Part shown: one piece after another, positions 29,230-34,654 of the stretch | Layout of the letters: the number at the start of each line of letters is the position of its first letter | Numbering within the stretch: the stretch's first letter is position 1 | From: Gammaproteobacteria bacterium | Lineage (GTDB): Bacteria; Pseudomonadota; Gammaproteobacteria; SZUA-152 | Assembly (NCBI GenBank): GCA_024276955.1 | Contig: JAJRWE010000107.1 | Span: forward strand, 1 to 35,793 | Length of the DNA stretch: 35,793 nt | Direction of reading: 5' to 3' | The notes under the pieces: generated by a model | Told to the model about the DNA's origin: nothing | The model's database searches: none | Seen by the model: the letters and a program-made list of their open reading frames with translations, nothing else | Translations under genes and position numbers: made by a program

Positions 29230-29510
29230 GCAGAATGGTGGAATGCGTGGTGCTGAAACGGCAGGCCGAAGGCCTGGAAAGCGTCCCGCACCCTGGTGAG
29301 CTGGGTCAGCGCATCTTTGAGAGCGTATCGCAGGAAGGCTGGCAGCAGTGGCTGCAACGCCTGGCCATGATCATCAACGAGAACGGCCTCAGCACCGCAG
29401 ATCCGGCCAGCATCGAAATCATAGAAAGCCACATGCGTGGTTTTTTCTTCGGTGAGGGCAGCATGGGCGGCACCCCCGACGGCTACCAAGCACCGGGCTC
29501 ACCGAAGTAA
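29226..29510 (+). CDS. yggX: Fe(2+)-trafficking protein YggX
   Basis: The 94-residue protein matches YggX across its length: the N-terminal VECVVLKRQAEGLE with the conserved Cys7, PGELGQRIFESVSQEGWQQW in pieces, and MIINENGL. YggX protects iron-sulfur enzymes from oxidative damage. It overlaps tatC by 4 nt; the usual partner mutY is not here. Confidence 0.92.
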   Translation: MSRMVECVVLKRQAEGLESVPHPGELGQRIFESVSQEGWQQWLQRLAMIINENGLSTADPASIEIIESHMRGFFFGEGSMGGTPDGYQAPGSPK

Positions 29511-29513
29511 ATC

Positions 29514-29539
29514 TGTAAGAGCGGGCCATGCCCGCGATG
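29514..29539. repeat. Single REP arm after yggX
   Basis: TGTAAGAGCGGGCCATGCC and its continuation match one arm of the REP at 24223. The second arm is missing. Confidence 0.65.
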
Positions 29540-29585
29540 CTTTTCCCCTGCACAGCACGGGGCTCGTTGTTCCGTAAATGATTGT

Positions 29586-29688
29586 GAACTTGTGACACCG
29601 CTCTGCGGTGTCACACATCCTGTGGCGCTCAGCGCCACCTCCATCTCGGCAGGCTAGCTTGGCTTTCCTTGCGTCACACCGCAGAGCG
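29586..29688 (+). repeat. 105-bp palindromic element, left copy (bracketing the cassette island)
   Basis: Starts GAACTTGTGACACCGC. It contains a hairpin TGTGACACCG / CGGTGTCACA (29591-29615), a second GTGGCGC / GCGCCAC hairpin (29622-29638), and ends with GTCACACCGCAGAGCG, the inverted form of its start. A second copy in the same orientation is at 33460-33565. The remaining bases to 29837 show no gene and no recognisable attC site. Confidence 0.8.
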
Positions 29689-29837
29689 CAGGTAATGGGC
29701 TCATCGCTTTTTTCTGAAGACCGCCGCTGGCAAACCCTAATCGCAGTTGTCGCGCCATAATGGAATAAATGTAGTAGCAGGTATGCAAAGTCAAGCAATG
29801 ACCCCTTTCTGGTGCTTGCTGGTGACGCGTACGGTAG

Positions 29838-30314
29838 CTATGAAGGCTGATCTAGGATTTGATGCTCAATAACTTCAAGCCTTTCGCCTAACACCTTTAC
29901 CTTATAAAACCCCTCACTCAAATTTATCCAAAAATAATACTTAAACTCTTTCACCTTACCGTTGCTATCAATTTTTAATTCATAAAAACAGGAATCTTGA
30001 CTATTACAACCTTCTGATGTTGCCCATAAATTAAATTCTTTATCATACCAATCAAACTTGGTTTGATGGTTTTTACCAAAGATGTATAAGCCATCGCTGT
30101 CATTTAAGCAAAACACTTCCAAAACAGATAGTTCTCCATTGGTATACAAATTTGAGCAGGTTTCAATATCTGGCAATATGTACTCCCTATCTGATTCATG
30201 GATTTTTTTATATCCCAGTTTTTGATAACCTTCGTTAGTGGTTAGCGTGGCACACGAGGCCAAGAGGAATATAAAAAACAGAGGCAGAACGAATAATATT
30301 CTAGGATTCATCAC
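29838..30314 (-). CDS. Small lipoprotein, possible immunity protein
   Basis: The 158-residue protein has a signal peptide with lipobox LLASC and a mature part rich in Lys, Tyr and Asp; Cys pairs occur at TCSNLY, VFCLND and GCNSQDSCF. No family is recognised. Base composition is clearly AT-richer than the flanking chromosome. The start overlaps the stop of the M23 peptidase gene (ATGA), so the two form a unit. A periplasmic lipoprotein paired with a peptidoglycan hydrolase that lacks its own signal peptide resembles effector-immunity pairs; this is inference. Confidence 0.7.
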   Translation of the reverse strand: MMNPRILFVLPLFFIFLLASCATLTTNEGYQKLGYKKIHESDREYILPDIETCSNLYTNGELSVLEVFCLNDSDGLYIFGKNHQTKFDWYDKEFNLWATSEGCNSQDSCFYELKIDSNGKVKEFKYYFWINLSEGFYKVKVLGERLEVIEHQILDQPS

Positions 30315-30745
30315 ATTATTCCAGGCAGCATTGTCTTTGGGTCAACTATCAAGTTATTTCTTCTTACTTCCAGATGAATATGATTTGTAATTCCCGGGTA
30401 TTTTCTTGTCAATTCTTGCGCGGCCCCTATTTTGTCACCCGCAGATACATTAGAACCAATAACTGATGCTAAAGGACTCATGTAGAATATTTTAACTGAA
30501 ATTCCTGCATGATCACCCGTCCCTTCAATAAGAACACCTGCGTAACTTAGATCCTTAGCATAAGGAAACGACCTTCTTACAACCTTACCATTCACTGGAG
30601 ATAAAACATCTTGCCCATTAATAGCTGTTATATCTATTCCGTTATGCTTTCGTGAGCCTCTTGGCGCACCAAAACTACCGCTCCCCCATTTGTCAGTCTT
30701 TCTAATGGTTCCATTTTTAATAGGGTTCACGAATTGAGTATTCAT
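30311..30745 (-). CDS. M23-family metallopeptidase domain protein without signal peptide
   Basis: The 144-residue protein is little more than a LytM/M23 peptidase domain. His34 and Asp38 of HNGID and the His122/His124 pair of HIHLE match the zinc-binding and catalytic positions. The middle motif, usually Y-x-H, is FYMS here, so one conserved histidine is missing. M23 enzymes cut peptide cross-links in peptidoglycan. No signal peptide is seen, so another export route would be needed. The start lies 18 bases from attC-like site A. Confidence 0.8.
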   Translation of the reverse strand: MNTQFVNPIKNGTIRKTDKWGSGSFGAPRGSRKHNGIDITAINGQDVLSPVNGKVVRRSFPYAKDLSYAGVLIEGTGDHAGISVKIFYMSPLASVIGSNVSAGDKIGAAQELTRKYPGITNHIHLEVRRNNLIVDPKTMLPGIM

Positions 30746-30762
30746 CTCTAATTTTCCCTTTT

Positions 30763-30822
30763 AATTAATGACCACAATAGCTGGACCGTTGCGGAGGTGG
30801 GTCCGAGTTGATTGTGCTTGTG
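30763..30822 (-). other. attC-like recombination site A, broken by an intron fragment
   Basis: Imperfect inverted arms 30773-30787 (CACAATAGCTGGACC) and 30800-30816 pair except for two extra bases, both on the arm that is 5' on the minus strand. This is the attC arrangement for leftward-reading cassettes. The outer edge near the M23 gene reads CATTAAT, one change from a GTTRRRY-type core. The other edge is replaced by the 5' end of a group IIC intron. Confidence 0.6.
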
Positions 30823-30939
30823 TATGTCCAGCATGGGCATGAACTAATGAGGTGAAAGTCCTCTGTAGGAAGATCACCGTCGAACACCGTGTGTTAGTAG
30901 ACGATAACTACTAGCGAATGGCAAGGGCCAACCCGCGAG
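30820..30939 (+). mobile_element. Group IIC intron 5' fragment, copy A
   Basis: Starts GTGTATGTCCAGCATGGG and continues through AGGTGAAAGTCCTCTG and GGCAAGGGCCAACC, landmarks of domain I in group IIC introns. It stops before the CTGAAGGAAGCCGG element present in copy C. No reverse-transcriptase gene or domain V/VI follows. It lies on the strand opposite to the cassette genes. Confidence 0.75.
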
Positions 30940-31205
30940 CGAGTAGAGGATCAGTTCTCGCATCGCAACATTGGGCGAAATTGGATATCTTCCTGGAGCA
31001 TGAGCGGTTCTTCAAAATATGCCGGAAGAGTTTTGTGGGAGCGGCTTCAGCCGTGAAGGAATAAAGGGAACAGGTCTTGCAGGCAACCGACCACAATCTG
31101 CGTGATTGCAAGACTTGACCCCATGCTCTTGCGTGATTGCAAGACTTGACCCCATGCTCTTGACCCCATGCTCCGTGCTCCGCAAGACTTGACCCCATGC
31201 TCCGT
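30940..31205. repeat. Shared spacer module (copy A) with REP half and GCAAGACTTGACCCC repeats
   Basis: From about 30953 to 31128 this block is nearly identical to 31958-32130. It includes a single REP arm (31031-31058) and ends in GCAAGACTTGACCCCATG. Here that unit recurs, whole or in part, four times up to 31203, directly against the toxin stop codon. No gene is supported. Confidence 0.75.
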
Positions 31206-31469
31206 TCATTCGTAGTGCGTCCACAAGCGGATAATCTTAATGGCATGCTCTTCTTCATAAACTTGATAGACAAGCCTATGTTGAATATTAATTCTTCGTG
31301 AATACGCACCGGACAGATCACCCACCAGCCTTTCATATGGGGGTGGGGTTTGATATGGGTTTTCTTTCATCACTTCTAGAAGCATCTTAGCCTTCTTATT
31401 TAACCCAGACGCGGACAGCTTTTTAGCGTCTTTTTGTGCTTGTTTGGTATACAGCAACTCCCAACTCAC
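31206..31469 (-). CDS. Txe/YoeB-type toxin (mRNA endoribonuclease)
   Basis: The 87-residue protein matches the YoeB/Txe branch of RelE toxins: WELLYTKQAQKDAKK, NPYQTPPPYERLVGDLSGAYSRRIN in pieces, HRLVYQVYEEE and the C-terminal HY pair. YoeB-type toxins cleave mRNA in the ribosomal A site. The GTG at 31469 overlaps the antitoxin stop (GTGA); a TTG at 31472 is the alternative. Confidence 0.92.
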   Translation of the reverse strand: MSWELLYTKQAQKDAKKLSASGLNKKAKMLLEVMKENPYQTPPPYERLVGDLSGAYSRRINIQHRLVYQVYEEEHAIKIIRLWTHYE

Positions 31470-31708
31470 CAATCAAGCTCCTTAGAAGATTCTGATAACT
31501 CTTCCTTCATTCCCTCTTTTATTGACTCCCTCATTCCGGGCACAGAGAGCAAGTGGAGAGTTTCAGCAATAGCGTTCCAATCGTCTTCAGAAACGAGGAC
31601 TGCATTCCCTCTTTTCCCTGTAATTACAATGGGTTGATGTGTCTCTGTAGTCTCGTCAATTAGGGTGTATAGCTTAGAGCGAGCTTCTGTAGCATTCAAG
31701 ATAGTCAT
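31466..31708 (-). CDS. Phd/YefM-family antitoxin
   Basis: The 80-residue protein has the YefM pattern: NATEARSKLYTLIDE, PIVITGKRGNAVLVSEDDW in pieces, and an acidic C-terminal tail that would bind the toxin. It normally also represses its own operon. A strong AAGGAGG lies just upstream of the ATG at 31708; the frame is open further 5' without family sequence. Such modules are frequent in integron arrays, where they stabilise cassettes. Confidence 0.93.
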   Translation of the reverse strand: MTILNATEARSKLYTLIDETTETHQPIVITGKRGNAVLVSEDDWNAIAETLHLLSVPGMRESIKEGMKEELSESSKELDW

Positions 31709-31767
31709 GGTTAAGTTCCTCCTTGATTTAGCGTACGATAAAGCGTACGCAATATCAAGGGCTATTC

Positions 31768-31858
31768 TGAACGCTATGCTCAGCGGCAATTCGAAGTGGT
31801 GCGTTTTTGCGATAGCAAAATAAGTGATGCATTGAATTGTCCGCTGGTGCTAATTGTG
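31768..31858 (-). other. attC-like recombination site B, broken by an intron fragment
   Basis: Arms 31778-31792 (containing CAGCGGCAATTC) and 31834-31850 (containing GAATTGTCCGCTG) pair exactly except for one unpaired base, on the arm that is 5' on the minus strand. The edge facing the antitoxin gene reads GCGTTCA on the minus strand, a degenerate core. The other edge is cut by intron copy B. The antitoxin start is 60 bases away. Confidence 0.65.
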
Positions 31859-31952
31859 TACGCCCAGCATGGGCATGAACTAATGAGGTGAAAGTCCTCT
31901 GTAGGAAGATCATCGTCGAACACCGTGTTGTTAGTAGATGATAACTACTAGC
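31856..31952 (+). mobile_element. Group IIC intron 5' fragment, copy B
   Basis: Starts GTGTACGCCCAGCATGGG and is nearly identical to copies A and C, but ends earlier, after the CTACTAGC hairpin segment. It contains no coding sequence. Confidence 0.75.
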
Positions 31953-32136
31953 TGATAAGTTCTCGCATCGCAACATTGGGCGAAATTGGATATCTTCCTG
32001 GAGCATGAGCGGTTCTTCAAAATATGCCGGAAGAGTTTTGTGGGAGCGGCTTCAGCCGCGAAGGAAATAAGGGAACAGGTCTTGCAAACAACCGGCCACA
32101 ATCTGCGTGATTGCAAGACTTGACCCCATGTGTGCA
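31953..32136. repeat. Shared spacer module (copy B)
   Basis: Near-identical to 30953-31128, including one REP arm (32036-32064) and one GCAAGACTTGACCCCATG unit. It abuts the stop codon of the 178-residue protein gene. Confidence 0.75.
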
Positions 32137-32673
32137 CTATTTAATATAAGTTTTAGTAACAATCTCATTAATTATTTCACGAGGAAGGTTTTTAGAAGTA
32201 ACCTCCACGACGACATCAATGGATTTAGAAATAATATATATTGTAATATGTACTTTCATTTCGTGAACAAAGAATTCAAGATCATTTATGTCATAATATG
32301 ACCTCTTTTCAACTCCTCTAACACCATCAATGAATGAACATTCCGTTATGTCTTGTGGGTTAGTAAAAGAACTTTTAAAGAAACTATAAGGTGATTTTTT
32401 TGACCCAATAAATTTGACTTCATTCTTGTCTATCACTCTATAAGAAACATATGAATCACCAGATACCATTATAACGACAGGCCCTTTATCAACGATGATT
32501 TCTTTTTCATCTATAAGCTTTGGGAGCCACAATGTGTTAGCAATAGTCAACCCATTTTCTACAGAATAGTCCAAAGAGACAGCATCTCTACTCTCTTTGT
32601 ACTGAATTGATTTACAAGCCGCATTTACAGGTGAACTCATAATAAATATTATCAACCATACAAACTTCAACAT
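32137..32673 (-). CDS. Secreted protein of unknown function (cassette-encoded)
   Basis: The 178-residue protein has a clear signal peptide (MLKFVWLIIFIMSSPVNA) and a mature part starting ACKSIQ. Two cysteines (mature N-terminus and TECSF) could form a disulfide. The rest is rich in Ser, Val and Lys with beta-type alternation; no family is recognised. Codons are AT-rich compared with the flanking core genes. AAGGAG-like sequence precedes the ATG. It starts about 41 bases from the core-like edge of attC-like site C. Confidence 0.7.
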   Translation of the reverse strand: MLKFVWLIIFIMSSPVNAACKSIQYKESRDAVSLDYSVENGLTIANTLWLPKLIDEKEIIVDKGPVVIMVSGDSYVSYRVIDKNEVKFIGSKKSPYSFFKSSFTNPQDITECSFIDGVRGVEKRSYYDINDLEFFVHEMKVHITIYIISKSIDVVVEVTSKNLPREIINEIVTKTYIK

Positions 32674-32713
32674 AAGAACTCCTTATTTTTCAAATTCAGG
32701 CTCAAGCCCAAGA

Positions 32714-32807
32714 GCTAACGACCCACATCAGTGGCAATCAAAAGTGGCGCGACTTTTGCAGAAGCAAAACCGTGACGCTTTTGACTGTCCGCTGGATGTG
32801 CTTTGTG
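32714..32807 (-). other. attC-like recombination site C, broken by an intron fragment
   Basis: Arms 32724-32744 (CACATCAGTGGCAATCAAAAG, 21 bases, split here as CACATCAGTGG and CAATCAAAAG) and 32778-32800 are imperfect inverted repeats. The two extra bases lie on the arm that is 5' on the minus strand. The edge facing the downstream gene reads CGTTAGC on the minus strand, a good attC core. The other edge, GCTTTGT, runs straight into the intron 5' end, the kind of target reported for IIC-attC introns. Confidence 0.7.
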
Positions 32808-32972
32808 TACGCCCAGCATGGGCAAGAACTAAATGAGGTGAAAGTCCTCTGTAGGAGGATCACCGTCGAACACCATGTTGTTAGTAGATGATAACTACTA
32901 GCGAATGGCAAGGGCCAACCCGCGAGGGGCGGTCTGAAGGAAGCCGGACGCACCAACAGTAGGCCCCATGAG
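32805..32972 (+). mobile_element. Group IIC intron 5' fragment, copy C (longest)
   Basis: Starts GTGTACGCCCAGCATGGG and reaches further into domain I than the others, including GGTCTGAAGGAAGCCGGACG. The order of landmarks (GTGTGCCCGGCATGGG-like start, GTGAAAGTCC, GCAAGGG, CTGAAGGAAGCCGG) is that of the Oceanobacillus iheyensis group IIC intron. No reverse transcriptase or domain V follows. Confidence 0.8.
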
Positions 32973-33023
32973 AAACAACAGGGAAACAACAGGGAACAGA
33001 CCACGATTTCTCCCTAGAGATTA

Positions 33024-33269
33024 TTACTTTTTCGTTTCTGGGGCGCAAAGACACTCAATCAACCGCTGTATCTGTCTTTTGCAACAGCCGATTCCATCTG
33101 TAGCGTAGGTTTGTTTTTGAACTTCTTCCACTGTTTTAGCCCCATTTACGATAGCATTGATAATATCTATCTTAAGAACATCATTACATGTACATAGATT
33201 TTCGTCTAAATCCTTCTTAAGAATAGGTGGAAGTTTATCCAGGGGATTTTTATCAGGATCAATTTTCAT
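33024..33269 (-). CDS. BFD-like [2Fe-2S]-binding protein (cassette-encoded)
   Basis: The 81-residue protein resembles bacterioferritin-associated ferredoxin domains: Cys26-x-Cys28 in LCTCNDV, a helix (KIDIINAIVNGAKTVEEV in pieces), then GIGCCKRQIQRLI with Cys62 and Cys63. The usual final CxxC is CC here, and an extra CLC follows at 73-75, so cluster ligation may differ. Such domains bind a [2Fe-2S] cluster and often serve as small electron carriers or regulatory modules. It begins 25-30 bases from attC-like site D. Standalone with an acidic/proline N-terminal lead. Confidence 0.75.
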   Translation of the reverse strand: MKIDPDKNPLDKLPPILKKDLDENLCTCNDVLKIDIINAIVNGAKTVEEVQKQTYATDGIGCCKRQIQRLIECLCAPETKK

Positions 33270-33293
33270 AAAAATAGTTCATGTTCGTTTTAC

Positions 33294-33414
33294 ACATAAC
33301 GTTGCGGGTAAGCGGACGGCCAACACTGAGCTTTCCAAGTACGAAAAGCTTTAATTATCTATTATTTCCCAAAAACACCGCAGTAGGCCGGTCCGCTTAC
33401 CCGCCTTATTATGC
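33294..33414 (-). other. attC-like recombination site D, intact
   Basis: Arms 33304-33321 and 33386-33404 (GCGGGTAAGCGGAC-type) pair over 18 bp with a single unpaired base, on the arm that is 5' on the minus strand. The outer edges read GCATAATAAGG and AACGTTATGTG on that strand, each about one change from the RYYYAAC and GTTRRRY attC cores. A 64-base variable loop lies between. Length (121 bp) fits large chromosomal-integron attC sites. Confidence 0.75.
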
Positions 33415-33459
33415 GGCTATTCGCACGTACTTTCATGGCAAGGATTGTTTTTTGTTTTT

Positions 33460-33565
33460 GAACTTGTGACACCGCTCTGCGGTGTCACACATCTCGTGGC
33501 GCTTAGCGCCACCTCGGCAGATTATTCTGGCTTCTTTGCGTCACACCGCGGAGCGGTGTGACGAG
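33460..33565 (+). repeat. 105-bp palindromic element, right copy
   Basis: Second copy of the element at 29586-29688, same orientation. It has the same two hairpins and ends in a complete GTCACACCGCGGAGCGGTGTGAC palindrome (given in parts: GTCACACCGC, GCGGTGTGAC). It lies just outside attC-like site D. Confidence 0.8.
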
Positions 33566-33600
33566 ACAAGGTATGGCTAGTCTTTGGCAATATGCCGGAA

Positions 33601-33675
33601 GAATTTTGTGGGAGCGGCTTCAGCCGCGAAGAGGTTGGCGCGTCATTCGCGGCTGAAGCCGCTCCCACAAAATTC
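33601..33675. repeat. REP palindrome with 30-bp perfect arms
   Basis: Arms begin GAATTTTGTGGGAGCGGCTT and mirror exactly across a 15-base loop. The preceding ATATGCCGGAAGA also precedes the REP halves in the two spacer modules, so those modules carry a cut-off version of this element. Confidence 0.9.
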
Positions 33676-33709
33676 AACAAATGATCATTCTCGCGGCCTC
33701 GGCCCGCTG

Positions 33710-34654
33710 CTACGACTCCTGATTTTCCATCGCATTCAGCGCCACCAGGCGCGGTTCGCTAGCGCCATTCAGGGGCAGGGCGGCGAAGTCGCGGCTGGCG
33801 ATCATGCGCTGGACTTCGCGCACGTAGTCTTCGCCGCGCTGTGAGTAGCGTTGCAGATGGGCGGCCAGTTGCAGCGGGCCGGGTGTCTGGCCGGCGGCGC
33901 GCAGGCGGGCGCGGGTGTCGCGCAGGTCTTCGTAGGCGTGGCCGATGTTGAGGTTGTGTAGGTAGGCGCGCACCGAGGCCTGCAGGTTGGGGAAGGCCTT
34001 GACCGAGTGGGTGGCGTCTTCGGCGCGGTTTTCCGGGGTCAGGCCACCGGTCTTTTTGTAGGTCCACTGGCCGAACAGGCTGTTGCCTTCCAACGCAAAG
34101 CGGGAGGTGCCCCAGCCGGATTCGAGGGCGGCCTGGGCAAGGGTCAGGGCACTGGGGATTTCGTCCAGCCTTTTCAGTAGTTCGACACGGTTCTCCACCG
34201 TGCGCAGGTCGCCGCGGATGCGGTACTCGCGGGCCGTACCGGTCAGCCATTTCTCCAGTTTTCCATCGGCCAGCGGTGGATTGTCCAGCAGCAGTTGCAC
34301 CAGCCGGCGCCGTTCACGCAGGCGGCGGTTTTCCGCCAGTACGATGGGCAGCAGGGTGCGCAGGAACAAGTGTTTGCGGGCGGTACTGCTGCGGATGTCG
34401 GCGAAGTCCGGCGGTAGGCGCTGCAGGGCGATGGCAGGTACCTGGTCACCCGGTGGCCAGCGGTAGCCCAGCCGGTCGAAGAACACCTTCAGTTCGGCGG
34501 CGCTGTCGACGGTGAGGGGCTGCAGGTGTTCACTTTCACTGTGACGTAGCGGTTCGGTTTGGGCCGGCTGGCTGCGGGTGGCCATGCCGGTGGCGAAAAG
34601 CAGGGTGAGGATCAGCAGGCTGAATCCGGTCAGGGTATGGGGGTTAGTACGCAT
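33710..34654 (-). CDS. Bax-like glucosaminidase-domain protein
   Basis: The 314-residue protein has an N-terminal membrane or signal segment (residues about 8-26) and a C-terminal glucosaminidase domain of the Bax/FlgJ type. Key features are the catalytic Glu in QAALESGWGTSRFA, then NSLFGQWTY and AFPNLQASVRAYLHNLN in pieces. These enzymes cut the glycan strands of peptidoglycan in the periplasm. The cellular role of Bax proteins is not well defined. It follows the AEC transporter gene on the same strand after 54 bases. Confidence 0.88.
   Translation of the reverse strand: MRTNPHTLTGFSLLILTLLFATGMATRSQPAQTEPLRHSESEHLQPLTVDSAAELKVFFDRLGYRWPPGDQVPAIALQRLPPDFADIRSSTARKHLFLRTLLPIVLAENRRLRERRRLVQLLLDNPPLADGKLEKWLTGTAREYRIRGDLRTVENRVELLKRLDEIPSALTLAQAALESGWGTSRFALEGNSLFGQWTYKKTGGLTPENRAEDATHSVKAFPNLQASVRAYLHNLNIGHAYEDLRDTRARLRAAGQTPGPLQLAAHLQRYSQRGEDYVREVQRMIASRDFAALPLNGASEPRLVALNAMENQES

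Follow-up and report, generated by a model that had tools for sequence, protein, structure and literature searches.

The palindrome at positions 33294-33414 stands at the edge of a gene cassette cluster, and the question it raises is whether it is a working attC site, a worn one, or a hairpin of another origin. The window, meaning the whole 35,793-nucleotide stretch of DNA that was analysed, makes up a single contig of a draft genome that totals 3.16 Mb in 251 contigs and is 86.5% complete. The named relatives of one flanking gene are uncultured Gammaproteobacteria, two of which are labelled Chromatiales. In a working attC site the integrase binds the folded bottom strand, picks that strand by the extrahelical bases on the 3' arm, and cuts in the R' box.

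The palindrome is real, single-copy and far beyond chance. An earlier note on this DNA had placed it at 33294-33414, which is exact, and had described its arms as nearly perfect, which was confirmed. The 18-nt arm at 33304-33321 pairs with the 19-nt arm at 33386-33404, and the one extra base is a G on the 3' arm (Table 1). Single-strand folding, proposed in the same note, was run as DNA with 200 shuffles and gave a structure far more stable than the shuffles on both strands (z = -5.46 on the minus strand and -5.30 on the plus strand, with 0/200 as good on either). The structural score of 18.5 was reached in 0/60 dinucleotide shuffles of 29400-33760. BLAST found one copy of the palindrome in the host genome, and the exact stem pattern was present in 1/24 family genomes, namely the host. 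Thus the palindrome is not scattered genome-wide in non-cassette contexts, an outcome that the note had named as fatal to its view.

Table 1. Coordinates of the palindrome, its parts and the neighbouring elements in the window.
Feature	Position	Strand	Basis or remark
R' box ACATAAC	33294..33300	+ (bottom strand)	6/7 to RYYYAAC; cassette boundary at R' box; sequence, scored
Central spacer, left, GTT, unpaired	33301..33303	+	Fold, arm comparison
L' arm GCGGGTAAGCGGACGGCC	33304..33321	+	Identical in homologue G001:C660
Variable terminal loop, 64 bases	33322..33385	+	Recognisably common to G001:C660 and G018:C75
L'' arm GGCCGGTCCGCTTACCCGC	33386..33404	+	Inner extra G kept; outer extra base of both homologues lost
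Central spacer, right, CTT, unpaired	33405..33407	+	Fold, arm comparison
R'' box ATTATGC	33408..33414	+	ATT in place of GTT; intron target TTGT/T absent (target as given in PMC7923331)
Cassette ORF adjoining the site, BFD-like [2Fe-2S] protein	33024..33269	-	Pfam PF04324; cassette starts at R' box
attC of next cassette	32713..32804	+	41.2 bits; R'' interrupted by intron fragment from ~32805
Second intron-interrupted attC	31766..31855	+	45.7 bits
Third intron-interrupted site, badly worn	30763..30819	+	Only 5.1 bits; intron start 30820
Interspersed repeat closing the cluster on the site's side	33453..33565		Second copy at 29579-29688 closes the other side

A mechanical hairpin scan was rejected as an attC detector, as two repeat palindromes outranked the site on the plus strand. 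Because the scan could not separate attC sites from repeats, a covariance model was built, a search that had also been proposed in the note. The model was trained on 23 attC sites from other genomes, none from the window, at loci with an integrase gene or an intron. In the training sites 85.9% of cells were paired, compared with 67.6% after shuffling, and the covariation score was 0.445 compared with 0.127. Slid versions all gave far lower values. The whole window contained exactly three matches to the model, all on the plus strand: 31766-31859 (45.7 bits), 32713-32812 (41.2 bits) and 33294-33414 (29.6 bits, E = 1.1e-4). With filters off, the palindrome scored 29.6 bits on the plus strand and 12.8 bits on the minus strand. 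Among 26 control loci (120 kb) there were only two matches, both in L023, which overlaps the window, and the 25 loci outside the array (~117 kb) gave none. The model match, the place in the array and the control loci without matches uphold the view that an attC-type site lies at the edge of the cassette cluster.

At genome scale the score of 33294-33414 is borderline. Its E value is ~0.01 when scaled to the genome, and in a whole-genome search at E 0.01 it was not among the nine host matches listed. This borderline score, in a region rich in palindromic repeats, would fit an unrelated hairpin, such as a terminator or interspersed repeat, that resembles attC by chance. Such an origin is extremely unlikely given that the palindrome is single-copy with the correct place and strand, that none of the 60 shuffles reached its structural score, that the ~117 kb outside the array gave no model matches, and that its homologues, which largely refute the idea, themselves score as attC. 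These homologues came from a BLAST search with the site on contig C660 of genome G001, which found 33294-33414 (80% identity) and a third copy on contig C75 of genome G018, from another genus (82%). The homologues in G001 and G018 score 33.7 and 27.6 bits against the model, respectively, and contig C1 of genome G013 holds a half copy. The attC identity of the palindrome is settled by these two homologues and by its position at a cassette boundary: the R' box starts the cassette of the ORF at 33024-33269, and more attC sites lie beyond. The palindrome belongs, as a site of the attC type, to the chromosomal integron of the host lineage.

It resembles the attC sites of sedentary chromosomal integrons (the two homologues and L094:3635-3750) in its R' box, short unpaired spacers, long L arms, variable loop, location at a cassette boundary, and bottom strand opposite to the cassette ORFs. 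It differs from them in its R'' box, its missing outer extrahelical base and its longest uninterrupted first helix, which has 13 pairs, whereas the 117 other sites of the family have at most 8. In one attC subtype, represented at L235 1515-1637, L236 386-509 and L238 1483-1540, the loop sequence is conserved across two genera. The loops of attC sites are usually variable, and a conserved loop is unusual for this type of site. The subtype may mark the recent spread of one cassette lineage.

The site forms the upstream end of a cassette array without an integrase, the ORFs of which are on the minus strand between yggX and a gene with a glucosaminidase domain. The cargo, as classified with Pfam, consists of an ORF without a match, lipoprotein-like by our reading, together with an M23 peptidase; a YoeB/YefM-like toxin-antitoxin pair; an unknown ORF; and the BFD-like [2Fe-2S] ORF. 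In two relatives, G004 and G009, the outer genes point towards each other across no more than ~100 bases with no cassettes between them, and the array is therefore an insertion. In G006 about 1 kb separates the outer genes, and the covariance model gives no score there. The repeats that bracket the array are ~110 bases long, lie in the same orientation and have 47 matches in the genome. The array could have moved in by recombination between repeats, or the two copies could flank it by chance in DNA that is poor in genes. Beside the cluster, at 33601-33675, there is also a perfect inverted repeat of 30 bases of the GTGGGAGCGGCTTCAGCCGCGAA type, and parts of it recur inside two intron-and-repeat segments.

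Eight integrase-family matches were found in the genome, none of them in the window. Only one exceeded the cut-off, a full-length integron integrase on contig C209 (427.8 bits against a cut-off of 265). The array is like a CALIN in that several cassettes and attC sites occur in the window without an integrase, the full-length integrase being on another contig. It differs in that the genome is a draft, so the array could still be linked to the integrase elsewhere.

The condition of the site was judged against 118 family sites, which are the 130 model matches minus 12 second-strand matches of sites already counted; by coordinates, at least 6 of the 118 are also among the 23 model sequences. The palindrome forms an imperfect hairpin with unpaired central spacers and L arms, and its 3+3 spacer is the commonest size (54/118). 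The earlier note had put both outer edges about one base from the attC core. That is true of the R' box, which holds the cut site on the bottom strand and is one base off RYYYAAC; a score of 6 was found in 68/118 sites, this one included. It is not true of the R'' box, which matches GTTRRRY at 5/7 positions, and one of the two differences is the first G of GTT. R'' starts with GTT in 110/111 other intron-free family sites, a figure biased towards GTT because the 23 model sequences were hand-picked from a scan requiring GTT in R''. Both homologues have kept GTT, whereas the window copy has ATT.

The second loss concerns the extrahelical bases. An attC site is expected to have two of them, both on the 3' side of the bottom strand, and here one is left. 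The outer base is a G in the G001 homologue and a T in the G018 homologue and is absent from the window copy, which has retained the inner one. In 105/117 other sites the 3' arm carries 2 or 3 extrahelical bases. By the same measure 10/117 have one or none, including the high-scoring L167:2254-2369 of the host genome, so a lone extrahelical base is uncommon but has parallels, and the loss of one need not kill a site.

The note's description of the site as intact does not stand, given an R'' box without GTT and an outer extrahelical base lost relative to both homologues. One could still regard it as an undamaged attC in full working order, from an unusual subtype whose perfect stem is long, since the R' box, spacers, arms and one extrahelical base are all present and the subtype is complete in three genomes of two genera. 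With the GTT and the outer base gone, we regard this as improbable. The long stem could also have arisen by a template switch (quasipalindrome correction), in which one arm copied the other and the extrahelical base was erased. Compared with G001 alone the case looked strong, as there are two clustered differences, a lost G and a G to C change, each of which restores pairing. It became weak when G018 was added. That genome, although from another genus, already has ACCC in the arm, so most of the pairing is older; what is left is a one-base deletion, for which simple slippage suffices, and arm copying is very unlikely.

On contig C57 of G001 a 14-base match to the arm has the same neighbouring gene as in the window and was at first taken for what is left of the site at this locus. 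This reading was rejected: the model gives the match no meaningful score, and the sequence is part of a different repeat that also occurs at G005:C67 and G001:C321. This second dispersed repeat of the genus (also L054 ~1720-1830) carries CCGTCCGCTCACCCGC or nearly so, which is almost identical to the attC arm, and shows no attC features.

We conclude that 33294-33414 is very probably a decayed attC, the recombination hairpin that ends an integron gene cassette, left behind by an upstream cassette that is gone. The homology to attC, the position, the strand and the two lost features are established by the comparisons above. Between R'' and the repeat at 33453 there are only ~40 bases. When 65 bases from 33409 were searched in 24 genomes, nothing above the level of repeats or chance was found except the window itself. 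From this short and matchless remainder we infer that the upstream cassette was lost. The site's own cassette would have extended towards 33415-33710 and disappeared except for the ~40 bases, and the site would now serve only as the upstream limit of the BFD-like cassette.

According to PMC3053210, integrases make contact with two extrahelical bases, and the identity, spacing and side of these bases govern excision. PMC8946536 adds that strand choice depends on the imperfections of the hairpin, with the bottom strand recombined about a thousand times more efficiently. In 33294-33414 the plus strand is the recombinogenic bottom strand. The R' box, spacer, arms and one extrahelical base remain, and the integrase encoded elsewhere in the genome could recombine it occasionally. 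With the outer extrahelical base and the GTT of R'' gone, the site should be weaker and its strand choice blunted. Given the nearly perfect stem and the published role of the extrahelical bases, recombination is expected to be less efficient and less selective; the site is probably recombined poorly, with weakened strand choice. A bolder proposal, to which we give little credence, is that this is a natural strand-blind attC, either strand of which can be used by the integrase thanks to the nearly perfect stem, and that the changed R'' also makes it immune to the attC-specific introns that disabled its neighbours. If the strand-blind proposal were true, the site could invert cassettes or capture them in both orientations.

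The neighbouring attC sites are interrupted at R'' on the bottom strand by group II intron fragments. The earlier note had called 33294-33414 the only site without an intron. This holds for the recognisable sites of the window, as the other two model matches carry an intron start and a fourth site, before 30820, scores only 5.1 bits; it fails for the genome and family, where 112/118 sites, this one included, are intron-free. The further claim, that it preserves the form of the others prior to invasion, is not supported. The sites at 31766 and 32713 are of a different type by sequence, whose 3' arm has two or three extrahelical bases, and 33294-33414 is also without the TTGT/T used by the introns. 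Since the neighbours are of a different attC type, their uninvaded look is shown by intact sites of their own kind in the host genome, such as C69:13753-13868 and C180:219-318. Intron-invaded sites were found by the intron alone, and those with a recognisable R' have the same kind of extrahelical bases.

Group IIC-attC introns target TTGT/T at R'', as stated in PMC7923331. The neighbours agree with this description in carrying the intron start at R'' on the bottom strand; 33294-33414 differs in reading TTAT/T and in being intron-free. TTG directly precedes the intron start in 27/31 listed junctions, which agrees with the target. The change of GTT to ATT in R'' has thus removed the intron target. 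That this explains the escape from invasion is consistent with the data but unneeded, as TTGT is present in 87/111 other intron-free sites.

The literature (PMC7923331 among it) already knows attC sites, integrase-less arrays and introns in attC. The site at 33294-33414 is one more, worn, member of the known kind, and nothing out of the ordinary in this field. It is a modest case, useful chiefly as a small example of attC decay in nature. The window copy and its two homologues share the same loop and arms and form a natural set, one lineage of which has lost two attC features. Such a set would allow the weight of the outer extrahelical base and of the R'' GTT to be measured on a natural background. 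It also serves as a warning that very long perfect arms can signal the decay of an attC rather than its integrity.

The introns were also examined with Rfam. At gathering scores there was no match in the window. With E up to 1, the sole relevant match in 29400-33760 was to a fragment of a group II intron at 32916-33042 and stayed below the threshold (22.2 bits against 32). The group-II-D1D4-3 family scored above its cut-off in 5/8 family loci searched, with a lower score in one of the five. One locus, L113 in genome G003, also matches the group II domain V family. The same intron there (contig C8, L113 1499-2210), with both the D1-D4 and domain V matches, spans only ~700 bases, and from this length it is probably a copy without its own protein. 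In the window three successive attC sites carry intron fragments (30820-31125, 31856-32130 and 32805-32960) in which only the 5' part is kept. That the 3' end is the part lost is opposite to what ordinary truncation during reverse transcription does. Two of the three fragments share a near-identical downstream segment fused to other repeats.
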